A stretch of 25,837 bases of DNA. Source: a virus. A program made the translations under genes and the position numbers. The stretch is taken from positions 1 to 25,837 of IMG/VR virus record IMGVR_UViG_3300032271_000413. One strand, written 5' to 3'. The notes beneath the pieces are model-generated. The model had not been told where the DNA came from. It saw only the letters and a program-made list of their open reading frames with translations, and did not search any database. Below, piece after piece: positions 665-16,102 of this stretch; positions within the stretch are counted from its first letter, which is position 1; each line of letters begins with the position of its first letter.

Positions 665-1285
665 ATGAAATTAATAAATTTAATACCATTTAAAGAAGCT
701 GCAAACGCTGCACAACAAGCTGCTATTGCAATTAATATGAAGAAAAAAGGTATAAAACCTAAAAATGAAAGTGAAGGCCCTTGTTGGAGTGGATACAAAC
801 AAGTTGGAATGAAAAATAAAAATGGTAAACAAGTACCAAATTGCGTTCCTGTTAATGAAAATGAATTAGGTAATTGTCCTAATTGTAGTAAACCAATGGC
901 ACAATGTGAATGTGGAATGTATGAAGGTGGTGATGATGATTATGATGAATTAGATGTTGAGCCAGAAGAAATTGATGATTTTATTCAATTTTTAAAAGCA
1001 TATAAAAATACTTTAGATGAAGGTGGTTGTCCATGTCTTTATGAAGCAGAATATCAAGGAAGAGAAGTAAAATTAGGTCATCCAATGCAGGGTGATGTTA
1101 AAAAGTTCAAAGTGTTTGTTAAAAACCCAAAAACAGGAAAAGTTATTAAAGTAAACTTTGGACAAAAAGGAATGAAAATTAGAAAATCAAATCCTGATGC
1201 AAGAAAATCTTTTAGAGCAAGAATGCATTGTGATAATCCAGGACCAAGAACAAAAGCAAATTATTGGAGTTGTAGAAAATGGTAA
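665..1285 (+). CDS. Phage head-module protein with Cys-rich knuckle and conserved FRAR-x-HC-x-YWSC tail; function unknown
   Basis: A 206-residue protein between terminase and portal. The N-terminus MKLINLIPFKEAANAAQ is short and amphipathic, like that of the protein at 6219. Residues 37-62 hold a CWSGYKQVGMKNKNG block ending in PNCVP. Residues 71-83 contain CPNC...CEC, which could form a small zinc knuckle. An acidic linker lies around 88-105. Residues 125-206 form a basic domain ending in RARMHC, PGPRTKANYWSC and RKW. I recall both the CW-GY-QVGMK and the RAR-HC/YWSC signatures from hypothetical proteins of other tailed phages, without an assigned function. The location suggests a prohead core or DNA-associated structural role; this is inference. 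The ATG follows an A-rich stretch with no Shine-Dalgarno sequence. Confidence 0.75.
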   Translation: MKLINLIPFKEAANAAQQAAIAINMKKKGIKPKNESEGPCWSGYKQVGMKNKNGKQVPNCVPVNENELGNCPNCSKPMAQCECGMYEGGDDDYDELDVEPEEIDDFIQFLKAYKNTLDEGGCPCLYEAEYQGREVKLGHPMQGDVKKFKVFVKNPKTGKVIKVNFGQKGMKIRKSNPDARKSFRARMHCDNPGPRTKANYWSCRKW

Positions 1286-1310
1286 TTTGGTAATATCAAA
1301 AAAATTACTT

Positions 1311-1322
1311 ATCTTCGAAGAT
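1311..1322. repeat. 12-bp perfect palindrome before the portal gene
   Basis: ATCTTCGAAGAT reads the same on both strands and sits 13 bases before the portal ATG. It could form a short hairpin only with a strained loop, so a protein-binding site or chance is as likely. No U-tract follows, so it is not an obvious terminator. Confidence 0.3.
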
Positions 1323-1335
1323 TAAAGAAACAAAA

Positions 1336-3099
1336 ATGGCAATAGAAAATAGAAACGATATAAATAACAGAGGTATATTTAAAAGACTTCAAAAGTTATT
1401 TTCAACAAATACTATCGTTCGAAAAACGGCAAAAGGAACTAAGGTAATTGATACCGATGAGTATCAAAGCATGACTACTAACTTAGTTGACCGTTTTATG
1501 AAAATAAAGGTTACAAATTGGGGAGATGGACATATAGATGGTGCACTAGCATATCAACAAGTTAGAATAGATTTGTTTAGAGATTATGATTCAATGGACC
1601 AAGACCCAATATTAGCATCGGCATTGGATATTTACGCAGATGAATCAACAGCAAAAAATGAACATGGCAATGTATTAAAGATACATCATGAAGATGACCA
1701 TATTAAGCAAGTATTAGAAAATTTATTTTACGATATTTTAAACATTGAATTTAATTTATGGCCATGGGCTAGAAATTTAGTTAAATATGGTGATTTCTTT
1801 TTACAAATTGAAGTTGCAGAAGAAGAAGGTGTTGGTATTGTAAACTGCTTTCCATATTCTCCATATGAAATTAGTAGAGTAGAAAATTTTGACCATAAAA
1901 ATCCACAAAGAGTAAAATTCGTTTATGCACCATATCAAAATCCATTGGGTGCTTATGGTATGACTGCAAAGAAAGAATTTGAAAACTGGGAAATGGCACA
2001 CTTTAGATTAAATTCAGATTCTAACTTTTTACCTTATGGTAAATCTATAATTGAAGGTGGTAGAAGAATTTGGAAACAGGTATCTTTAATGGAAGATGCA
2101 ATGTTGATTCATAGAATTACAAGAGCACCTGAAAAAAGAATATTTAAAATTGATGTAGGTAATATTCCACCAAATGAGGTTGATAACTACATGCAAAAGA
2201 TTATTAATAGTTCTAAGAAAGTTCCATTTGTAGATGAAAATACAGGTGAATATAACTTAAAATATAACCAACAAAATTTAATGGAAGATTATTACATGCC
2301 TGTGAGAGGTAATGATAATGGAACTTCTATTGATACATTGAAAGGTTTGGAATATAATATGATTGATGACCTTAATTATTTAAAGAATAAATTAATGGCA
2401 TCTTTAAAAATTCCAAAAGCTTGGTTAGGATATGAAGAAGATACTGGTGGTAAATCAACATTGGCAGCATTGGATGTTAGATTTGCAAAAAGTATTGAAA
2501 GAGTTCAGAAAGTAATTATTTCTGAATTAACAAAAATTGCAATTATACACTTATACGCACAAGGTATTCAAGATGATAGATTGACAGATTTTACATTGGA
2601 ATTAACCACTCCTTCTAAAATTTACGAACAAGAGAAAGTTGAAACATATACTGCAAAAGTTCAATTACTTCAACAAATGCAACAAACTAAAATGTTCTCT
2701 AAAGAATGGATGTATGAAACCATTATGGGAATGGCTAAAGATGAGCAAGATGAACAAACATTGGGTGTATTAGATGATACAAAACAAACATTCAGATTAA
2801 CTTCTATTGAAACACAAGGAACTGACCCTGCACAAGAACCAGAACAAACAAATGTGGAAGAAGAATTAGAAAGGTTAAAAACAGAATTAGAAGAAGAAGG
2901 AAATGTTGGTAGACCTAAAGACCCAAATAGATATGGTAAAGATGACCATCCATTAGGAAGAGACCCATTTGGCCAAAAAGCTAATAAAGAAAAAACGGAT
3001 TCTATAAAATATAAACCAAGAGTTAATTATCAAGAAATATTTAAGGATATGATGGGTAATAAAAAAACTATTTTGACAGAAGATTACGATAAAAAGTAA
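1336..3099 (+). CDS. 20: Portal vertex protein (gp20-like)
   Basis: A 587-residue protein, somewhat longer than T4 gp20 (about 524). It would form the dodecameric ring at one capsid vertex through which DNA enters and leaves, and on which head assembly starts. Family landmarks in order: YDSMDQDPILASALDIYADE (about 84-103), LVKYGDFFLQIEV (about 148-160), FPYSPYEISRVE, AHFRLNSDSNFLPYGKSIIE (about 222-241), APEKRIFKIDVGNIPP, YYMPVRGND (about 321-329), then LKIPKAWLGYEE and the ALDVRFAKSIERVQK helix. The C-terminal 90 residues are a charged, Gln/Glu-rich extension with GRPKDPNRYGKDDHPLGRDP, probably the disordered or crown-like part. The terminase two genes upstream is its partner. The family call is very secure. 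Confidence 0.95.
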   Translation: MAIENRNDINNRGIFKRLQKLFSTNTIVRKTAKGTKVIDTDEYQSMTTNLVDRFMKIKVTNWGDGHIDGALAYQQVRIDLFRDYDSMDQDPILASALDIYADESTAKNEHGNVLKIHHEDDHIKQVLENLFYDILNIEFNLWPWARNLVKYGDFFLQIEVAEEEGVGIVNCFPYSPYEISRVENFDHKNPQRVKFVYAPYQNPLGAYGMTAKKEFENWEMAHFRLNSDSNFLPYGKSIIEGGRRIWKQVSLMEDAMLIHRITRAPEKRIFKIDVGNIPPNEVDNYMQKIINSSKKVPFVDENTGEYNLKYNQQNLMEDYYMPVRGNDNGTSIDTLKGLEYNMIDDLNYLKNKLMASLKIPKAWLGYEEDTGGKSTLAALDVRFAKSIERVQKVIISELTKIAIIHLYAQGIQDDRLTDFTLELTTPSKIYEQEKVETYTAKVQLLQQMQQTKMFSKEWMYETIMGMAKDEQDEQTLGVLDDTKQTFRLTSIETQGTDPAQEPEQTNVEEELERLKTELEEEGNVGRPKDPNRYGKDDHPLGRDPFGQKANKEKTDSIKYKPRVNYQEIFKDMMGNKKTILTEDYDKK

Positions 3100-3117
3100 T
3101 AAACCAATAGAATAATA

Positions 3118-3125
3118 TATTTATA
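3118..3125 (+). promoter_or_regulatory. Candidate late-promoter element TATTTATA
   Basis: The octamer lies in the 46-base gap after the portal gene, 20 bases before the ATG at 3146. It matches the elements at 625, 10981, 11292, 16143 and 22635. Function is inferred from recurrence only. Confidence 0.35.
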
Positions 3126-3145
3126 TCTGAATAATTGTATAATTA

Positions 3146-4015
3146 ATGAAAAAAATCAAACATTCAAAGTTTAAAAATACAGGATTTATATTTGAATTAC
3201 TTGTAAGACAGATTACATCTGAAATCATGTCTTCAAATAAATCAATTGCAGAAAAAATTTTAAAAGAACATTTTAATTCTAAAAAAGAATTATCTAAGGA
3301 ATTAAAATTATATCAATACTTAATAAACGAAAAATATAATTCAGAAGCAAAAGCTGAAAAATTTATAGATACTATTTGTGAAGCTCGTAAAAGATTGGAT
3401 GAGAAAAAACTTATTAAAGAAAAATATAATCTTGTAAAAGAAATTAAAGAAACTTATAATTTGGATGAATTTATTAAATCTCCAATTTCTAATTATAAAA
3501 CATTAGCATCAATATATAAAATATTTGAAGAAGTAACTACGGATGAACAATATGACCCTACGGATATTGTAAGTTCTCGTTTTACGATTGCAGAAAATAT
3601 TATTAATTCTTCTATTCAAAATAAAGAAGTAAAAATTAAAGATGCTGTTTTGGAAGAATATAGAAAACAAGATGAAGATTTAAGAGCAATATCTTATAAA
3701 ATGTTAGTTGAAAGTTTTAATTCAAAATATAAAAATCTTACACAAGAACAAAAAGGATTATTAAGAGAATACATAAATAATATAAATAATACAGGTAAAT
3801 TATTAGAATATGTTTCAAATGAAGCAACTAAACTTATTACAAATTTAAAAGAAGTTGGTTCAAAAATTACTGATAAAGTAACAAAAATTAAATTAGCAGA
3901 AACAATTGCAAATATTAGAAAAGTTAAATCTGTTAAAAAAATTAAAGAAACCCATTTGTCTGCATTAATGATGACATACGAATTATTAAAAGAATTAAAA
4001 GAAAAATCAAAATAA
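3146..4015 (+). CDS. Conserved phage head-module protein, mostly helical, function unknown
   Basis: A 289-residue, Lys/Glu-rich protein predicted by eye to be almost entirely alpha-helical. It begins MKKIKHSKFKNTGFIFELLV followed by RQITSEIM. I associate this opening (KNTG-x-x-FELLVRQIT) with hypothetical proteins next to portal genes in other T4-like phages, but no function is known to me. Further features are a YDPTDIV loop near 135-142 and a long basic C-terminal helix region (KLAETIANIRKVKSVKKIKE). The strongly basic helical character and the position between portal and protease fit a prohead core or DNA-binding internal protein; this is inference. The stop is separated by one base from the ATG of the next gene, so the two are probably co-transcribed. 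Confidence 0.72.
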   Translation: MKKIKHSKFKNTGFIFELLVRQITSEIMSSNKSIAEKILKEHFNSKKELSKELKLYQYLINEKYNSEAKAEKFIDTICEARKRLDEKKLIKEKYNLVKEIKETYNLDEFIKSPISNYKTLASIYKIFEEVTTDEQYDPTDIVSSRFTIAENIINSSIQNKEVKIKDAVLEEYRKQDEDLRAISYKMLVESFNSKYKNLTQEQKGLLREYINNINNTGKLLEYVSNEATKLITNLKEVGSKITDKVTKIKLAETIANIRKVKSVKKIKETHLSALMMTYELLKELKEKSK

Positions 4016-4016
4016 A

Positions 4017-4265
4017 ATGACAAATTATAGAACATATAAAGCAATTGCCGTAACAGGTAGTTCACAATTACCAGCACCAAAGCAAGCTTGGGGAGTATTA
4101 GTAGTAGCTGGTTCATCCGGAAGTATATCTTTGGGTGATAAAGATTACGCAGTATCTGGAAATACATCTACCATTAAATTAGAACATTTAGTAGCAGGAA
4201 CACCATTTCCTTGTTATGTAAACGCAGTGACTTGTTCGGCAGGAACTGCATATATTTTACAATAA
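4017..4265 (+). CDS. Small beta-rich structural-type protein, function unknown
   Basis: An 82-residue protein with alternating hydrophobic and small residues (YKAIAVTGSS, AWGVLVVAGSSGSISLG, TSTIKLEHLVAG, YVNAVTCSAGTAYILQ), the pattern of a compact beta-sandwich or barrel. No transmembrane segment or signal peptide is evident. The Gly/Ser-rich turns and position in the head module suggest a capsid decoration or small head protein, but I do not recognise the family. It begins one base after the preceding stop, which favours translation coupled to the gene upstream. Confidence 0.7.
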   Translation: MTNYRTYKAIAVTGSSQLPAPKQAWGVLVVAGSSGSISLGDKDYAVSGNTSTIKLEHLVAGTPFPCYVNAVTCSAGTAYILQ

Positions 4266-4280
4266 TTAATTTAGAATAAA

Positions 4281-5327
4281 ATGCCAGCAGTATCAAAAGC
4301 ACAACAAAAATTTATGGGAATGGTTCATGCCGCACAAAAAGGTGATATGAAAAATCCATCTCCAGAAGTTTCTAAAGCAGCAAGTAGCATGAGTAAAAAA
4401 TCAGCAAAAGATTTTGCATCTACAAAACAAAAAGGATTACCTGACCATGTAGATGAAGATTATTTAAATCCTGCACAACAAAATGTAAAAAATGCAAAAG
4501 ATGCAGCTGCTTATACTACAACTAAGCATGACCAAGAAGCAGATATGATTCCTCAAGCCGAATATTTAGTAAAACTAAAAGAAGCAATTAGAAAGATAGT
4601 TAGAGAAAGAATGATGGAGGAAGATATCAATACTACTAGTGCTACACCTGGATATCAAACTCCATACGCATTTGGTAAAGATAAAGGTGAAAATTCTAAA
4701 GGTGAAAAAGCAAAAGGAGCAAAGCAAGCATCATTAACTGGATACTCAGTAGTTAAAGAAGTTAAGCAAGAAACGACAGTAGGTTTGGATGTTAAAGATA
4801 ATCCAACTCCAATTCCATATAAAGCAGTTAGAACTCCAAAGGGAAAAGATAAAGCAAAAGATAAAGAGATGGCAGATGTATCTGATATGGAATATGTAAT
4901 GGATACACATGATGGTGAAGATACAATGAAAACAGAAGATAAGACTGTAGCAGGAACTGGATATATTGATAATGCACCTGCATTTCCAACAAAAAATGTA
5001 GCAGCAAAATCACCTGCAGAAGATAAGAAAAAAGATAAAGAATTAGCTAGAGTATCTGATATGGAATTTGTAGCAGATATGCATGAGAATAGATGGTTAG
5101 ATTTAAAAAGAGAAGTTTCATCACCACAACAAAAAATAGGTAGAGGTATTTCTCAAATCAACGGACAATTGGCAGAAATGGAGAAATTTTTAGAATGGTA
5201 TGGTAAGATTAAAAATGAAAGTGGTGTTACTAACGAAAATTTCTGGAAAAGAACAAATAACAATATTTATAAGATAAAGGAACGTCTTATTAGATTAGAA
5301 CAAAAAATTCGTAAAATTGGAGAATAA
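4281..5327 (+). CDS. DUF3008-type head-module protein with an internal duplication
   Basis: A 348-residue protein. Residues 1-60 match what I know as the DUF3008 pattern of short phage proteins: VSKAQQKFMGMVHAAQKGDM, then SKKSAKDFASTKQKGLP. The rest is an unusual extension. A basic amphipathic helix LVKLKEAIRKIVRERMMEE lies near residues 96-114. A repeat of about 40 residues occurs twice (from D173 and from D230), each ending in KDKE-x-A-x-VSDMEYV/FV-x-D-x-H. The C-terminal 80 residues look like a coiled coil (INGQLAEMEKFLEWYGKI; IRLEQKIRKIGE). It may be an internal head protein processed by the gp21-like protease nearby; this is inference. The next gene starts one base after its stop. Confidence 0.75.
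   Translation: MPAVSKAQQKFMGMVHAAQKGDMKNPSPEVSKAASSMSKKSAKDFASTKQKGLPDHVDEDYLNPAQQNVKNAKDAAAYTTTKHDQEADMIPQAEYLVKLKEAIRKIVRERMMEEDINTTSATPGYQTPYAFGKDKGENSKGEKAKGAKQASLTGYSVVKEVKQETTVGLDVKDNPTPIPYKAVRTPKGKDKAKDKEMADVSDMEYVMDTHDGEDTMKTEDKTVAGTGYIDNAPAFPTKNVAAKSPAEDKKKDKELARVSDMEFVADMHENRWLDLKREVSSPQQKIGRGISQINGQLAEMEKFLEWYGKIKNESGVTNENFWKRTNNNIYKIKERLIRLEQKIRKIGE
4797..5084 (+). repeat. Duplicated ~115-bp coding module
   Basis: Copies at about 4797-4910 and 4968-5084. The last 54 bases of each (4857-4910 and 5031-5084) align without gaps and encode KDKEMADVSDMEYVMDTH and KDKELARVSDMEFVADMH. The upstream parts are more diverged but keep DN...P-x-K-x-V. The repeat is in frame and extends the protein rather than breaking it. 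Confidence 0.7.
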
Positions 5328-5328
5328 T

Positions 5329-5622
5329 ATGAAACTAAATCAATTAAAAGAACTTATCCATCAAGTGATGAGAGAAGAACAAGATTATAAAGCATTATTT
5401 AATCATATGTTAGATAAAACTGGTAAATCTATTCCAGATATGTCTGATGATGAAAAGAAAAAATTCTTCAATGCCGTTGATAAAGCATACAAAGCTAAAT
5501 CAGAAGGTAGATTGGTAGGATATAACGAAGCTGAATTGACAGCTGGTCAAAAAAAATTAGATGTTGATGGTGATGGTGAAATTGAAGGTTCCGATTTAGC
5601 TAAATTGAGAAAAAACAAATAA
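5329..5622 (+). CDS. Small head-module protein with EF-hand-like calcium loop
   Basis: A 97-residue protein. I chose the ATG at 5329: it lies one base after the preceding stop, whereas the TTG at 5317 is in the same frame but overlaps the upstream gene and adds only four residues. The N-terminus MKLNQLKELIHQVMREEQ is an amphipathic helix like other short head-protein leaders here. The middle, MSDDEKKKFFNAVDKAYKAK, resembles a motif I have seen in other phage head-associated hypotheticals. Near the C-terminus DVDGDGEIEGSD fits the 12-residue EF-hand loop with acidic ligands at positions 1, 3, 5, 9 and 12. Calcium binding is therefore plausible. The gene overlaps the protease gene start by one base, suggesting coupled expression and possibly a substrate or partner role. 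Confidence 0.75.
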   Translation: MKLNQLKELIHQVMREEQDYKALFNHMLDKTGKSIPDMSDDEKKKFFNAVDKAYKAKSEGRLVGYNEAELTAGQKKLDVDGDGEIEGSDLAKLRKNK

Positions 5623-6212
5623 TGAATAAAAATCTATTAATAGAAACTCATTTATTTGAAGCAAAACTTCAACAAGAAGATAATGGAACTTATTTAGTTA
5701 AAGGAATCTTACAAAGAGCTGGTGCACCCAATCAAAATAATAGAAGATATCCAAAAGAAATCTTAATGAGAGAGTGTGAAAAATATCAACAACTTATTAA
5801 GGAAAGAAGAGCATTGGGTGAATTAGACCATCCTGAATCTCCTGTTATTAACTTAAAAAATGTATCACATAATATTAGAGAAATCTATTGGGATGGTGAT
5901 GATGTTTGTGGATTGGTTGAAATTTTATCAACACCTTCTGGTAATATTTTAAAAGAATTATTAAAAAATAATATTCGTTTAGGTATTTCATCAAGAGGAT
6001 TGGGTTCGGTAAAAGAGTTAAATGATGGAACAGTAATGGTTCAGCCTGACTTTGAATTAGTAGGTTGGGATTTTGTATCAAACCCATCTACACATGGTGC
6101 ATTTATGGCTCCTGTTAACGAAAGTAAACAATGGGCTAAAATCGCAGAAGAATGTGGCAAATGGTGTAAAGCACAAGATTTGATGAGAGAAATTATCATA
6201 GAATTAAATTAA
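5622..6212 (+). CDS. 21: Prohead core protease (gp21-like)
   Basis: A 196-residue protein close to T4 gp21 (about 212). It would be the serine protease that sits inside the prohead, cleaves scaffold, core and capsid protein after assembly, and so triggers expansion. The expected core is present: GILQRAGAPNQNNRRYP (about 28-44), the catalytic His in GELDHPES (H70), and the catalytic Ser in LGISSRGLGSV (S123/S124), followed by FELVGWDFVSNPST and GAFMAPVNES. This arrangement matches the herpesvirus-protease-like fold of phage prohead proteases. The ATG overlaps the upstream stop (TAATG). Unlike T4, four small genes lie between this gene and the scaffold gene. Confidence 0.93.
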   Translation: MNKNLLIETHLFEAKLQQEDNGTYLVKGILQRAGAPNQNNRRYPKEILMRECEKYQQLIKERRALGELDHPESPVINLKNVSHNIREIYWDGDDVCGLVEILSTPSGNILKELLKNNIRLGISSRGLGSVKELNDGTVMVQPDFELVGWDFVSNPSTHGAFMAPVNESKQWAKIAEECGKWCKAQDLMREIIIELN

Positions 6213-6218
6213 AATAAA

Positions 6219-6485
6219 ATGGCAAGATTAGTAAGTCTTATTCCTGTAAATAAAGAAGTTGTAAATAAAAAGAAAATTCAAAAAGAAGATATTTCTGATA
6301 TTCATGCTCAAATACCAGCTTCAATAAAGCATGATATTGAGGGTATGACTAACAAAATTAAATCTATGAATTTATCAAGAGATAAAGAAGCATTGATTAT
6401 TGCAAAATTAGTTGATGCAATGGGTATGGATAAAGGTGATTTAAACAACGCAATATCTAAAATTAAAAAAGCTCACATAGTATAA
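6219..6485 (+). CDS. Small head-module protein, function unknown
   Basis: An 88-residue basic, helical protein starting six bases after the protease stop. Its N-terminus MARLVSLIPVNKEVVNKK shares the L-x-x-LIP-x-x-KE pattern of the protein at 665 (MKLINLIPFKE), which I take as a possible capsid-targeting leader. The remainder (IPASIKHDIEGMTNKIKSM; EALIIAKLVDAMGMDKGDLN) looks like three or four helices with no recognisable domain. Probably a minor internal or core protein of the prohead, by position only. Confidence 0.68.
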   Translation: MARLVSLIPVNKEVVNKKKIQKEDISDIHAQIPASIKHDIEGMTNKIKSMNLSRDKEALIIAKLVDAMGMDKGDLNNAISKIKKAHIV

Positions 6486-6496
6486 ATAAAATCGAT

Positions 6497-6928
6497 ATGA
6501 TAAGATTAAAAAACATATTAAAAGAAAATGAACAATTTCAAAAATTACCAACTGAATTAAAAAAACATTTTTTAGAAATCATTTCAACTTATGGACAACA
6601 TAGAGAAGGAATGGAGAGAAAATCTGATATTAGACAAGTTGCAGAAACATTGGGTGGTATTGCAGATGCTGCACAAGAATATACTTTAAGAGAAGGTGGA
6701 GATTGGTTTGATAATGTTACTATAAAAAGAAACATGAAAGAATTAAAATCTTTACAAGAAAAATTTGAAAAAGAAGCTAAAGAAGCAGCAACTCAAGAAC
6801 AAAGAATGCAAGCACTTTACGAAGATATGGGACATGTGTTGGGTAGATATTTTGAAATAGCAGATGTATCGGAAGATGTAATGAAAAAAAGATTAGGATT
6901 AAATGAGTGTAAAACTTGCAAAAAGTAA
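6497..6928 (+). CDS. Conserved helical head-module protein, function unknown
   Basis: A 143-residue helical protein. It opens MIRLKNILKENEQFQKLP, another short amphipathic leader with an early ENE. Mid-protein motifs GGDWFDNVTIKRNMKELKSL and MQALYEDMGHVLGRYFEIAD are ones I associate with uncharacterised proteins in head clusters of other T4-like phages. It ends in a Cys pair, CKTCKK. No catalytic motif is visible. Its stop codon is directly followed by the next ATG with no gap. Likely a prohead core component; inference from position and helix content. Confidence 0.72.
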   Translation: MIRLKNILKENEQFQKLPTELKKHFLEIISTYGQHREGMERKSDIRQVAETLGGIADAAQEYTLREGGDWFDNVTIKRNMKELKSLQEKFEKEAKEAATQEQRMQALYEDMGHVLGRYFEIADVSEDVMKKRLGLNECKTCKK

Positions 6929-7342
6929 ATGAAAAAAAATAAACAACAATTAAATGAATTTGGTTTAATAGATGTATTAAGACCTTTAGCTGTTTATTGG
7001 TTTGCTAAATTGCTTGGAAATCTTTTAACAGATTTTCAATCTTATATGGATGGTAGAGATTACAAAATAACTAAAGCAATTCAAAGTATTATAAAAAATT
7101 TACAATCAAATCCAAGAGTAGTTGCTAAAATGAATGATATAATTGAAAAATCTGGATTTAATGGTTTAGTTTATAAAGTTTTACAATTTCCAGAAACACA
7201 ATCCGAATTAAATAAATACAAAAATGATAAAAATATAAAGTTTGATGTTTTGCAAGATGAATTAAAAAATGTATTTGAAAAAGGATTTGATACTACTGCA
7301 CAAAAATACGCAGCACAACAATTAGAAAAAGATTTAAAATAA
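6929..7342 (+). CDS. Head-module protein of unknown function with a hydrophobic N-terminal segment
   Basis: A 137-residue protein starting directly after the preceding stop. Residues about 10-31 (EFGLIDVLRPLAVYWFAKLL and the residues after it) form a hydrophobic, aromatic helix that may pack against other core proteins; it is interrupted by Arg and Lys and is not a clear transmembrane span. The rest is a mixed-charge helical region rich in Asn, Lys and Gln (IIKNLQSNPRVVAKMNDIIE; DTTAQKYAAQQLEKDLK). I do not recognise a family. The tight packing with the two flanking genes suggests the group works together in prohead assembly. Confidence 0.65.
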   Translation: MKKNKQQLNEFGLIDVLRPLAVYWFAKLLGNLLTDFQSYMDGRDYKITKAIQSIIKNLQSNPRVVAKMNDIIEKSGFNGLVYKVLQFPETQSELNKYKNDKNIKFDVLQDELKNVFEKGFDTTAQKYAAQQLEKDLK

Positions 7343-7348
7343 ATTAAA

Positions 7349-7720
7349 ATGGAACAATTAGCATCATTATTTTTTCACAGTAGAACACAGGCACATGTGT
7401 TTCATTTAGGAGTAAAAGGACCGGGAGCATTTGCTGCACATTCTGCATTAAATACATACTACGATGAAATTATTGAATTAATAGATGGTTTAGTAGAATC
7501 ATATCAAGGAAAATATGGTTTAATTAAATTTCAACCAGTAAATGGATTGGATACAAATTGTGATATTAAAAATATTATTTCATATTTTGAAAAATTATGT
7601 GTAGCATTAGAAAAAATGAGACAAGATTCAAAATTAAAAGATAGTTGGATTCAAAATGAAATAGATAATGTAGCAAAATTATTATATTCTACAAAATATA
7701 AATTAGTTAATTTACAATAA
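7349..7720 (+). CDS. Ferritin/Dps-like helical phage protein (DUF5856-like)
   Basis: A 123-residue protein with the sequence feel of a short ferritin-like four-helix protein: LFFHSRTQAHVFHLGVKGPG, FAAHSALNTYYDEIIELIDG, LVESYQGKYGLI, then two helices (IISYFEKLCVALEKM; IQNEIDNVAKLLYSTKYKL). The H-x-x-H and H...YYDEIIELID spacing resembles the metal or dimer-interface helices of Dps-like proteins. I recall phage proteins of this type annotated as DUF5856, with no experimental role known to me. Placement as the last gene of the head module, just before a strong terminator, suggests a packaged or capsid-associated protein. Iron binding is speculation; several canonical Dps ligands cannot be confirmed by eye. 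Confidence 0.62.
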   Translation: MEQLASLFFHSRTQAHVFHLGVKGPGAFAAHSALNTYYDEIIELIDGLVESYQGKYGLIKFQPVNGLDTNCDIKNIISYFEKLCVALEKMRQDSKLKDSWIQNEIDNVAKLLYSTKYKLVNLQ

Positions 7721-7936: not shown

Positions 7937-9256
7937 ATGGCAAATTCAAAATTATTGAAAGAAGCAATCGCTGATGCCAAAGCTGTAAAAGAAACTGCTT
8001 TAGCAAACGCAAAACTTGCTCTTGAAGAAGCATTTACTCCTAGACTTCAATCTATGTTATCTCAAAAATTGAGAGCAGAAGCTGAAGCAGAGGCAGAAGA
8101 TGCAGAAATGAAGAACGAGGAATTGGATTCTTCTGACATCGGTACGAAAGTAGATGCAGGATATCCAGAAACACCTGGTAAAACAGGAAAAGGTTTTGAT
8201 GCTCATACAGACTTATCTAAATCTGATGTTGGTATTGACATTAAGAGTGGTGATGCAAACAAAGATGCTGGCTACAAAAAAGTGGCTGACATTAACGAAG
8301 AGTGGGATGAGAATGGTGAGGATGAAAAACAAAATGAAATCGCACAATTAAGAGCTAGATTAGCTGAATTAGAGGCTGGTAACGAAGAAGACCCTAACGA
8401 TGAGTCTGATGAATACAGCATGGACCCAGATTCAGATGATGATTCTTATGATGTAGCAGGTCATGAAGATGAAGAAGCTCCAGGAATGGATGCAGACCAT
8501 TCAGATGATATGCATCATGATGAAGAATCAGAAGATGATATGGATTTAGAAGCTATTATCAGAGAATTAGAAGCTCAATTAGAAGGTGATGACATGGATG
8601 GTGAAAACCACGATGAAATGGATGGTGAGCATGAAGAAGATGAGAGTATGTATGAAGATGCATATTCTGATGGTTCTGAAGCCGGAACTGATAAAGGTGA
8701 AGACCCAAAAGTAGTTAAAGTAGAAAACGAAGACCCTACTAAAGCTAGTGGAAAAGCACCAAGAGGTTCATTTGATAAAGATTCTATTTCTGAAGATGTA
8801 ATCGACTTAGAAGAAATCTTAAGAGAAATGGAAGATGATATGAAAGGTGATGAAGCTGAGAAAAAAGATGAGTCTTTGAAAAAAGATTTAAACGAAGCTT
8901 ACAAAACTATCAAATCATTACAAAACACAATTAACGAAGTAAACTTATTAAACGCTAAGTTATTATTCGCTAATAAATTATTCAGAGCACACAATATGAC
9001 TAACGAACAAAAAGTTAAAGTGATTGAAACTTTGGATAGAACAAAATCAGTAAGAGAAGTTAAATTAGTTTACTCTACATTAGCAGAAAACTTAAAACAA
9101 CCTTCTATTACTAAAGCTACTAAAAAATCAATGACAGAAGGTATTGCTAGCAAAGTAACAAAATCAACTAAGCCAGCAGTTGCACAAAAGCAAGTAATTG
9201 CTGAATCTGCAAACTTTTCTGACAGATTTAAAAAATTAGCAGGTATTATTAAATAA
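7937..9256 (+). CDS. 22: Prohead scaffold/core protein (gp22-like), long acidic form
   Basis: A 439-residue protein, much longer than T4 gp22 (about 269). The N-terminal helix MANSKLLKEAIADAKAVKET leads to FTPRLQSMLSQKLRAEAEAE, as in scaffolds of marine T4-like phages. Residues about 45-325 are extremely acidic and low-complexity, with many Asp, Glu, His and Met runs (for example HHDEESEDDMD). The C-terminal 130 residues are the conserved scaffold part: coiled coil INEVNLLNAKLLFANKLFRA, TNEQKVKVIETLDRTKSVRE, VKLVYSTLAENL, and the ending SDRFKKLAGIIK. It would fill the prohead, guide capsid assembly and be digested by the gp21-like protease. It sits 19 bases upstream of the capsid gene, and both genes use C-ending codons (AAC, TTC, TAC) more than their neighbours, consistent with high expression. 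Confidence 0.9.
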   Translation: MANSKLLKEAIADAKAVKETALANAKLALEEAFTPRLQSMLSQKLRAEAEAEAEDAEMKNEELDSSDIGTKVDAGYPETPGKTGKGFDAHTDLSKSDVGIDIKSGDANKDAGYKKVADINEEWDENGEDEKQNEIAQLRARLAELEAGNEEDPNDESDEYSMDPDSDDDSYDVAGHEDEEAPGMDADHSDDMHHDEESEDDMDLEAIIRELEAQLEGDDMDGENHDEMDGEHEEDESMYEDAYSDGSEAGTDKGEDPKVVKVENEDPTKASGKAPRGSFDKDSISEDVIDLEEILREMEDDMKGDEAEKKDESLKKDLNEAYKTIKSLQNTINEVNLLNAKLLFANKLFRAHNMTNEQKVKVIETLDRTKSVREVKLVYSTLAENLKQPSITKATKKSMTEGIASKVTKSTKPAVAQKQVIAESANFSDRFKKLAGIIK

Positions 9257-9275: not shown

Positions 9276-10886
9276 ATGGACTTAAAGAAATTTATGACAG
9301 GCGCTAACCCACAAAGCATTATGCTTGAACAAACTAGAGGTTTGAAAAGCAAGTGGGAAAAAACGGGTTTATTAGAGAACGCAGGTTCTGAAACTCAAAA
9401 GCATGGTATGGCAGTAATGTTAGAAAACCAAGCTAAACAATTATTAGATGAGGCTACAACAACAGGTACTTCTGCAGGTTCTGAAGAATGGGCAGGTGTT
9501 GCGTTACCTTTAGTAAGAAGAATCTTTGGTTCTATCGCAGCTAAAGAATTCGTTTCAGTTCAACCAATGAACTTACCTTCAGGTCTTATTTTCTACATGG
9601 ACTTTAAATATGGTTCTAACCCAGCTGGTAACCCAGATTATTCTGGTTCTTCAGTTTATGGAACAGGTGGAACTTATGGTAAAGATTCATTAGCTCCAGC
9701 AGGTAACAAATTGGGTTCTACTCAAGATACAACTGGTGGTTTATATGGTGCTGGTAGATTTGGATATACAATCAATAACTTATCATCTTCAGTAACTGCA
9801 GCAACTTACGCTACAGCTTCTATTGGTGATATCAACTATGATTTATCTAATCAAACGGTATCTGCAGCTTTAGCTTCAGGTGCATTGAAGAAAGTAGGTA
9901 TTGCAATTCCTGCAGCAGCTGATTTTGAAGGATTTAGAGCATTTGAATTTGTTGCTACAACAGGTTCTTTCGGAGCTCAATATAACAACTACATTTCTTA
10001 TGATGGAACTAATGTTTATTTCTTAACAAGTGGTTCTGTAAATGGAGCAACTGTAACAGGTACTTTATACTATCATCAACAACCAGTTCAATACAACAGA
10101 GGTGACTTTGAAGATAAAGGTGTAAACTTACAAATCCCAGAAGTAAACTTAGAGTTGAAATCTGAACCAATTGTTGCTAAGACAAGAAAATTAAAAGCAG
10201 TGTGGACACCGGAATTGGCACAAGATTTGAACGCTTACCATAGTATTGATGCTGAGGCTGAGTTAACTCAAATGTTGTCTGAATACATCTCTTTAGAAAT
10301 CGATTTAGAAATCTTAGAAATGTTACAAACTAACGCTTTCACAACTGATTACTGGTCAGCAAGAGTAGGATACGATTGGAATGGTTCTTCTTTCCAAGTT
10401 GATTCAACTGCAGCAGCAGCTTACGCTTACCAAAAAAATACATGGTTCCAAACTTTGGGTATCAAATTACAGAAAGTTTCTAATAAAATTCATCAATTGA
10501 CTATGAGAGGTGGTGCAAACTTTATTGTTTGTTCTCCAAATGTAGCTACAATTTTAGAATCTATGAATGGCTTCTCTGCTAACCCAGGTAAAGATTCTTT
10601 ACAATTCGCAGCTGGTGTTTCTAATATCGGTCAAATCTCTAACAGATATGATGTTTATAAGAATCCATACATGACTGAGAATGTAATCTTATTAGGATTT
10701 AAAGGTTCTAACTTCTTTGAAACAGGTGCAGTTTACGCTCCATACGTTCCATTGATTATGACTCCTTTAGTTTATGACCCAACTAACTTTACTCCAAGAA
10801 GAGGTGTTATGACTAGATACGCTAAGAAAATTGTAAGACCAGAGTTTTACGGTAAGATTATCGTTGAAGGTTTAAACACTATCTAA
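9276..10886 (+). CDS. 23: Major capsid protein (gp23-like)
   Basis: A 536-residue protein, near T4 gp23 (521). Hallmarks: SVQPMNLPSGLIFYMDFKYG, AKTRKLKAVWTPELAQDLNA, YHSIDAEAELTQMLSEYISL followed by EIDLEILEMLQ, GGANFIVCSPNVATILESM, VSNIGQISNRYDVYKNPYM, FKGSNFFETGAVYAPYVPLI, and TPRRGVMTRYAKKIVRPEFY. It forms the hexameric lattice of the head. The N-terminal 59 residues are probably a propeptide: LLDE followed by ATTTG mirrors the T4 cleavage context, so the gp21-like enzyme likely cuts after E59. Residues about 105-290 are rich in Gly, Ser, Thr and Ala and correspond to the variable surface-exposed insertion region. No separate vertex gene (gp24) is seen in the window. Confidence 0.96.
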   Translation: MDLKKFMTGANPQSIMLEQTRGLKSKWEKTGLLENAGSETQKHGMAVMLENQAKQLLDEATTTGTSAGSEEWAGVALPLVRRIFGSIAAKEFVSVQPMNLPSGLIFYMDFKYGSNPAGNPDYSGSSVYGTGGTYGKDSLAPAGNKLGSTQDTTGGLYGAGRFGYTINNLSSSVTAATYATASIGDINYDLSNQTVSAALASGALKKVGIAIPAAADFEGFRAFEFVATTGSFGAQYNNYISYDGTNVYFLTSGSVNGATVTGTLYYHQQPVQYNRGDFEDKGVNLQIPEVNLELKSEPIVAKTRKLKAVWTPELAQDLNAYHSIDAEAELTQMLSEYISLEIDLEILEMLQTNAFTTDYWSARVGYDWNGSSFQVDSTAAAAYAYQKNTWFQTLGIKLQKVSNKIHQLTMRGGANFIVCSPNVATILESMNGFSANPGKDSLQFAAGVSNIGQISNRYDVYKNPYMTENVILLGFKGSNFFETGAVYAPYVPLIMTPLVYDPTNFTPRRGVMTRYAKKIVRPEFYGKIIVEGLNTI

Positions 10887-15685: not shown

Positions 15686-16102
15686 ATGGCAAATTTAATA
15701 AGATTAAAACAAATAGAAAGTGGTTCATCATTGAGCACAGCTGCAAATGTAGGTCAAAACTTTACTGCATCGGTGCAAGCGGCATTACCTACTGGAATAT
15801 ATTCATCATCAGCACAATTACCAACGGGAATATTATCATCATCTATACAAGTTGCAACAGCATTGAGTGGAGCAGTAGTAAATAATTTAACAATTTCATC
15901 AAACACAGATGCATACTCATTAATAGTACAAGGTGCAGTAGCAGTAGTTGACGCAACGATAAATAATAATGGATTTATTGAAGATGTTCCTGGTGAAATA
16001 TTTATAAATGGTAGAACAGGTTCAGCGGCTCAACCAACGGCAACACCATATGATAGTAGTGGAAATCCAACCGCAAATATAATTGATAATGGTACTTGGT
16101 AA
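15686..16102 (+). CDS. Small fibre-module protein ending in IIDNGTW
   Basis: A 138-residue Ser/Thr/Ala-rich protein opening MANLIRLKQIESGSSLSTAA. It contains a repeat of the form LPTGIYSSSAQ and LPTGILSSSIQ (about residues 34-52), typical of short beta turns in fibre shafts. It ends GNPTANIIDNGTW, similar to the endings of the proteins at 18684 and 21869. No enzymatic motif is seen. Probably a short virion fibre component. The octamer TATTTATA lies at 15674-15681, only four bases before this ATG, too close to act as a promoter for this start. Confidence 0.66.
   Translation: MANLIRLKQIESGSSLSTAANVGQNFTASVQAALPTGIYSSSAQLPTGILSSSIQVATALSGAVVNNLTISSNTDAYSLIVQGAVAVVDATINNNGFIEDVPGEIFINGRTGSAAQPTATPYDSSGNPTANIIDNGTW

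Follow-up and report, generated by a model that had tools for sequence, protein, structure and literature searches.

Several proteins in one T4-like phage head module begin with similar short N-termini, raising the question of whether these act as leaders that load different proteins into the head. Leaders of this kind are already known from the internal proteins of T4 and other T-even phages. Targeting of T4 IPIII needs no more than its first 10 residues, of which 4 and 7 matter for targeting and 8 and 10 for processing; gp21 cleaves after L/I-x-E, and Asp at residue 10 stops processing but not targeting (PMC9026906). The prohead protease also removes the first 10 residues of gp24 (PMC9958956), and the internal proteins of T-even phages are diverse, sharing only the conserved targeting sequence (PMC3012670).

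Head module of the window and its T4-like cleavage motifs

The window, by which we mean the whole stretch of DNA analysed, is a complete 25.8-kb IMG/VR record (25,837 nt; IMGVR_UViG_3300032271_000413) that carries a T4-like phage head module. Its genes run from the end of a large terminase through a gp20-type portal, a gp21-type S77 protease, an acidic scaffold-like protein and a gp23-type capsid protein to neck and fibre genes, and the gp20, gp21 and gp23 homologues stand in the head-module order of Far-T4/T4-like Caudoviricetes. Judged by protease identity, Microcystis phage Mel-JY01 is the nearest isolate (61%), followed by Flavobacterium phage immuto (50%). Without an MCP tree, we say only that the window resembles the uncultivated Far-T4 phages, which were described from freshwater viromes (PMC4360716). 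The following features frame the analysis:

1336..3099, + strand: gp20-type portal (Pfam Portal_T4, E=5.5e-74), without a leader
5622..6212, + strand: gp21-type prohead protease, Peptidase S77 (PF03420, E=7.9e-29; phrog_207, E=1.2e-53)
7937..9256, + strand: acidic scaffold-like protein, assigned by composition (net charge -58) and by a location, after the protease and before the MCP, that immuto and Mel-JY01 share
9276..10886, + strand: gp23-type major capsid protein (phrog_138, E=5.9e-75)

The protease has a T4-like site resembling a self-cleavage site near its N-terminus, at residue 8 (LLIE/T, that is LIE/T, the slash marking the proposed cut), and [LI]xE is kept close to the N-terminus in 48/48 homologues. 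The capsid protein has a T4-like cleavage motif at residue 59 (LLDE/A, that is LDE/A), with LLDEA present in 21 of 22 distinct homologues and the remaining one not scored. Given these two conserved sites, the same cleavage specificity as in T4 is likely. The scaffold-like protein, which begins with MANSKLLKEAIADA in 34 of 35 homologues, is likely the gp22-type core on which leaders could dock. The module also encodes a Dps/ferritin-like protein (7349-7720; phrog_858, E=1e-16), which has no leader and is kept in the head modules of most relatives.

Leader-like N-termini in the window

The N-termini under study, together with one internal helix, are as follows:

665..697, + strand: leader MKLINLIPFKE of a 206-aa protein (665-1285); proposed cut after Glu11 (FKE/A)
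4566..4622, + strand: internal basic helix LVKLKEAIRKIVRERMMEE in the DUF3008 protein at 4281
5329..5379, + strand: looser leader MKLNQLKELIHQVMREE of a 97-aa dockerin/EF-hand-like protein
6219..6257, + strand: leader MARLVSLIPVNKE of an 88-aa protein, with the core MARLVSLIP at 6219-6245; cut site uncertain
6497..6526, + strand: leader MIRLKNILKE of a 143-aa protein; proposed cut after Glu10 (LKE/N)
6929..6958, + strand: N-terminus MKKNKQQLNE, with LxE (LNE/F) at residue 10 and without the hydrophobic residues 4 and 7

A preliminary description of this DNA had listed four similar leaders, at 665, 6219, 6497 and 5329. All four N-termini are present at these coordinates and in these frames, and the likeness holds for the first three, which have a common core M(x)[KR]Lxx[LIFM][LIMVF] (observed form M(x)[KR]Lxx[LI][LI]); the 5329 protein has only a looser version. 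The core opens just these 3 of the 26 genes in the window, against an expectation of 0.03 when its rate in the interior of these proteins is used and of 0.05 when N-termini are shuffled, and the shuffling puts the probability of three or more such starts at about 1e-4. Across five large related contigs, a leader regular expression matched the starts of 1-7 genes per contig versus 0.05-0.3 expected, and in each of the five the motif at gene starts exceeded both the internal and the shuffled rates. Pfam gave no clear function for the 665, 6219, 6497 and 6929 proteins; some relatives of the 6929 protein begin M[QI]KL.

Direct DNA repeats in the window were considered as a source of the leaders and do not explain them. 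As the preliminary description had stated, no neck or fibre protein begins with a leader. Several fibre proteins share a different start: the genes at 15686, 16193, 21869 and 22701 have in common a separate N-terminus, xxxIxLKRSxxxGKxPTxxSLxxGELAxNTxDGK, which is probably an attachment module.

The 6497-type leader and the T4 register

Homologues of the 6497 protein keep L4, [IL]7, [LM]8 and E10 in 49/49 cases, with residue 9 variable, and the codons of the leader vary synonymously (Leu8, for example, is written TTA, TTG, CTA or CTC). The leader stands in the register of T4 ipIII (MKTYQEFIAE) and gp24 (MAKINELLRE); more generally, MIKLKxLLxE leaders have the IPIII arrangement of hydrophobic residues at 4, 7 and 8, a free residue 9 and Glu10. 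The earlier proposal of a T4-like capsid-targeting leader is thereby upheld in its spacing for the 6497 type; packaging, cleavage and injection are not something that sequence can demonstrate. AlphaFold predicted a helical structure for the 6497 protein, with low confidence (pLDDT 55).

On T4 itself, the register pattern M..h..hh.E recovers ipII, ipIII, gp24, gp61.1 and one probable chance match. The closest T4 match to MIRLKNILKE is the gp24 propeptide (MAKINELLRE/S), which is nearly the same in sequence and length and is removed by the prohead protease; gp24, however, is the shell vertex protein, and no similarity between it and the 6497 protein was detected. IPII and IPIII (MKTYQEFIAE/A) resemble the present system in having the 10-residue register on unrelated bodies, in being accompanied by an encoded gp21-type protease and in having genes partly outside the head module. 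They differ in that the leaders here are basic (KLK), Leu-rich and without aromatics, that a second, proline-containing LIP-type form exists, and that many more cargo types are involved, along with conserved head-module genes.

The uncharacterised T4 gp61.1 (NC_000866, 18966-19130) begins MKTFKEFIKE/D, close to the IPIII targeting sequence; on this resemblance, it is possibly an unrecognised packaged protein.

LIP-type leaders on the 665 and 6219 proteins

The body of the 665 protein consists of a CWxGY...VPNCVP module and an HVA1-like C-terminal domain. Its family keeps the leader M[KR]LINLIP[LFI]KE, and in most members the CWxGY body follows directly after KE; the window protein has an extra 22-27 residues in between, and its leader has Phe rather than Leu or Ile at P3 (FKE, not L/I-x-E). 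For the 6219 protein, homologues were drawn from 80 loci chosen by protease similarity alone. This family keeps MA[KR]L[IV]NLIP at about 90% conservation per position, followed by a linker variable in both length and sequence and by a body of median identity ~42%. A hydrophobic-x-E motif occurs within the first 40 aa in 24 of its 36 homologues and is absent from the other 12; (L/I)xE ends the leader in the 6497 protein and in most 665-type proteins.

The leaders also move between bodies. A long form, ...NFTDIKVLTKEEFxE, is found on both 665-type and 6219-type bodies, and one locus (L056) shows a leader swap: it has no 6219 gene, and the 6497 body there carries a leader of the 6219 type. The LIP-type leader (665, 6219) fails the T4 register, being at least 11 residues long (one or more extra) with proline at 8 or 9, and its kinship to the T4 targeting sequence is claimed only in the sense that it would work alike.

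The 5329 leader and a helix inside an apparently fused protein

Because the 5329 leader (in homologues, MKHTELKELIRQVVKEE) is no more conserved than the body behind it, it is weak evidence taken alone. The basic helix that the preliminary description had placed within the 4281 protein is real. The second half of this protein is a separate gene in relatives, which the helix opens, ending at IDE/M. Such standalone genes, with MPETLKTEQLNKIREIVRKMVRERMIDE running directly into MNTTG...TPYAF, occur in L064, L037, L024 and others, and phage immuto has a shorter standalone form, MKKSQIVKAVQEVLEE followed by MSTTG. A regular expression for the internal helix matched the window only; the split genes were seen on direct reading of the homologues. 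Internal leaders following apparent gene fusion were found in L007, L068, L070 and L317, and the 4281 helix is such a case.

Two side observations concern these fused proteins. The 4281 protein contains an imperfect 67-nt direct repeat (4846-4912 and 5020-5086; DKEMADVSDMEYV and DKELARVSDMEFV), and a 579-aa protein at L317:2744-4480 has, besides the leader at its N-terminus, a second one (MIKLKDVLRES) in its interior.

Leaders across IMG/VR

Pattern scans of IMG/VR DNA, which give only a lower bound on leader abundance, recovered MI[KR]LKx[LF][LF]KE in at least 120 stretches versus 2 for the reversed pattern in the whole collection, with 118 of the 130 matches listed lying at ORF starts. M[KR]LINLIP[LIF][KRQ]E was likewise found on several unrelated bodies. 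Among the matches listed, MI[KR]LKxLLKE and M[KR]LINLIP open about 90 mutually unrelated proteins; once 12 residues are removed, the leader proteins listed fall into 91 body clusters without detectable mutual similarity, counts that are approximate because a BLAST cut-off and single-linkage were used. Since the exact pattern itself selects the letters, we examined an unselected set of 75 ORFs from the same loci that start MxKLK and do not match the search pattern. These have a hydrophobic residue at 7 in 97%, a hydrophobic residue at 8 in 95% and Glu10 in 83%; the corresponding values for internal controls (the same tetrapeptide inside proteins) are 20%, 31% and 8%.

Across 84,980 prokaryote genomes, the forward pattern was matched 37 times, mostly in very short ORFs or internal to proteins, with about 2 of the matches resembling leader genes. 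Matches in Mucilaginibacter were rejected as leaders, being an internal motif of a uracil-DNA glycosylase-like protein. This near-absence, from a set that includes many AT-rich genomes, bears on the idea that the shared starts are a translation-start or nucleotide-level signal, such as an AT-rich, low-structure 5' end, in which the peptide has no role. The phage genomes are indeed AT-rich, and codons for Lys, Leu and Ile are frequent at gene starts in such phages; shuffled N-termini of the same composition nevertheless fail to reproduce the motif, it is confined to a few genes in each genome, and E10 and the hydrophobic residues at 4, 7 and 8 persist despite codon variation. We find such a signal scarcely credible.

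The preliminary description had proposed aligning homologues to see whether the leader is conserved while the body varies, and this expectation was met: the same leader stands on many unrelated bodies and is swapped between them. The bodies also speak against whole-gene ancestry, in which the leader proteins would all have arisen by duplication and divergence from a single ancestral head protein. Paralogous triplets do exist, as in Mel-JY01 (60276, 60923 and 62056), but the bodies at large are non-homologous (NUDIX, cytidylyltransferase, 2H/Acb1-like, AAA/zeta-like kinase, nucleotidase and OmpA), and leaders both swap (L056) and occur inside the fused proteins listed above, which leaves common descent of the whole genes with next to no weight.

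When two leader proteins were compared with cultured phages by tblastn, no matches came up. None of the four leader strings tried is printed in the literature searched. The T-even internal-protein loci are alike in containing diverse proteins that have only a targeting sequence in common; here, by comparison, the leaders span about 90 body clusters in a wide lineage of uncultivated phages. The head propeptides of phiKZ and SPN3US are also N-terminal, cut after Glu by a related protease and borne by many substrates, ejected proteins included. Their motif, however, is S/A-x-E, many of them are long, and we found no report of a shared 10-residue leader among them.

Phages that carry the leaders

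Of 100 leader loci 5 kb or longer, 96 have at least two genes in common with gp21/gp23-type phages; among random loci the figure is 19 of 92. Among large contigs, an S77 protease was found in 13 of 31 leader contigs versus 3 of 22 random ones; three of an original 34 (from L127, L151 and L184) were chance pattern matches and are excluded from the counts. A gp21-type S77 protease is encoded on every one of the 12 leader contigs in which gp23 was recognised. No S77 protease was detected in 18 of the 31 leader contigs of at least 40 kb, and an S78 protease sought in leader contigs lacking S77 was not found; these contigs are probably fragments, because gp23 (and S78) is also absent from them.

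Within genomes, leader genes are adjacent to one another above chance in G001 (p=0.005), G018 (p=0.001), G025 (p=0.03) and Mel-JY01 (p=0.02); no such excess was seen in G002, G016, G066, immuto or T4. In Mel-JY01 and immuto, KLKxLLxE-type leaders stand on genes that do not belong to the core head module; the head modules of both isolates are without LIP leaders, and their counterparts of the 6497 and 6219 proteins start differently. Leader proteins of the isolates begin, for instance, MIKLIDLLTE/S (24977) and MGNLADLLLE/E (109812) in immuto and MIKLKSLLQE/I (60276) in Mel-JY01. Since P-SSM4 and HTVC008M showed no significant leader enrichment, we do not extend the claim to all T4-like phages.

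A basic amphipathic helix, as inferred from the sequence, can also bind membranes or other acidic partners, and the leader might direct proteins to another site, such as the host membrane, the nucleoid or a replication compartment. The clustering of leaders with head genes and gp21-type phages, the match of the 6497-type register to the experimentally defined T4 signal and the protease motif that ends the 6497 leader and most 665-type ones make such a destination very unlikely.

Three further observations were made in these genomes. Mel-JY01 encodes, a few genes upstream of its head genes, a 639-aa cytidylyltransferase-like protein with a leader-like start, MGKLINILLSE (PP395634, 11243-13162). 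In L357, six or more neighbouring leader genes with different bodies lie within less than 5 kb, a dense cargo cluster. In G018, the major capsid protein itself (52048-53691; L544) has a leader-like beginning, MKISSLLEDN, which suggests that cargo leaders mimic a capsid propeptide.

Cleavable capsid-targeting propeptides as the favoured reading

Leader sharing, module swapping, a register and motif conserved in the 6497 type, and restriction to T4-like phages are observed. From them we infer, with a probability of roughly 0.78, that the leaders are cleavable capsid-targeting propeptides; core binding, packaging and cleavage are inferred, and injection less certainly so. No virion proteomics or N-terminal sequencing was found for these phages. 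In the proposed mechanism, short basic amphipathic leaders would bind the acidic scaffold core beside the portal during prohead assembly, so that the proteins bearing them would be incorporated into the prohead. Cutting after the hydrophobic-x-Glu at the leader end, the gp21-type protease (5622-6212) would then free the body inside the head. As a separable module, the leader could therefore be attached by the lineage to many different bodies, some of which may be conserved head-assembly proteins (6497 and probably 6219). The remainder, the products of 665 and of genes in other parts of the genome, would be variable cargo and might reach the cell together with the DNA.

The cleavage step is where another reading comes closest to these observations. 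The leader could be a helix that docks on the scaffold and directs proteins to the prohead without being a protease substrate, the conserved Glu being part of the helix. The third of 6219 homologues (12 of 36) that have no hydrophobic-x-E fit docking alone, as does the 5329 leader, which is as conserved as its body, and the effect of Asp10 in T4 separates targeting from processing (PMC9026906). Against it, E10 is invariant with residue 9 free, body sequence begins directly after the Glu, and a gp21-type protease gene is present in these genomes, with LxE sites conserved elsewhere. We regard docking without cleavage as unlikely. The cleavable propeptide remains our preferred reading, and the head-loading proposed in the preliminary description gains support from the range of bodies, the swapping, the (L/I)xE end of the 6497 leader and of most 665-type ones, and the phage restriction; the 5329 protein and part of the 6219 family fit it less well, and the off-register LIP leader and the different head-module starts of Mel-JY01 and immuto count against it.

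Leader-bearing proteins as candidate cargo

Domains recognised in leader proteins comprise NUDIX, cytidylyltransferase-like, DUF6267, 2H phosphoesterase and AAA_33/zeta-like kinase, with weak matches to NT5C nucleotidase and OmpA; most of the proteins have none. A leader is not proof of injection, because T4 gp24, a shell protein, bears the same kind of leader; by this example, the leader alone cannot separate injected cargo from structural proteins of the head. Judged on sequence, the 10-13 residue tag probably marks a large set of proteins carried in the heads of uncultivated aquatic phages. A broader proposal, that one cleavable leader on dozens of unrelated bodies, enzymes included, constitutes an open, lineage-wide cargo system whose members are both carried in the head and injected, with the injected proteome readable from the leader alone, is tentative, and we put it at somewhat under even odds. 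Its enzymes would include Acb1-related 2H phosphoesterase (anti-CBASS), NUDIX, cytidylyltransferase and kinase proteins.

If the leaders work as in T4, the packaged and possibly injected proteins of widespread uncultivated phages could be listed from sequence. Most of the proteins so listed would be uncharacterised, and some resemble counter-defence enzymes. The leaders would also be new targeting tags, for which the isolates Mel-JY01 and immuto allow testing. A leader-bearing 2H phosphoesterase at L286:1173-1700 scores just above the Pfam cut-off for the anti-CBASS protein Acb1 (27.6 vs 27 bits).
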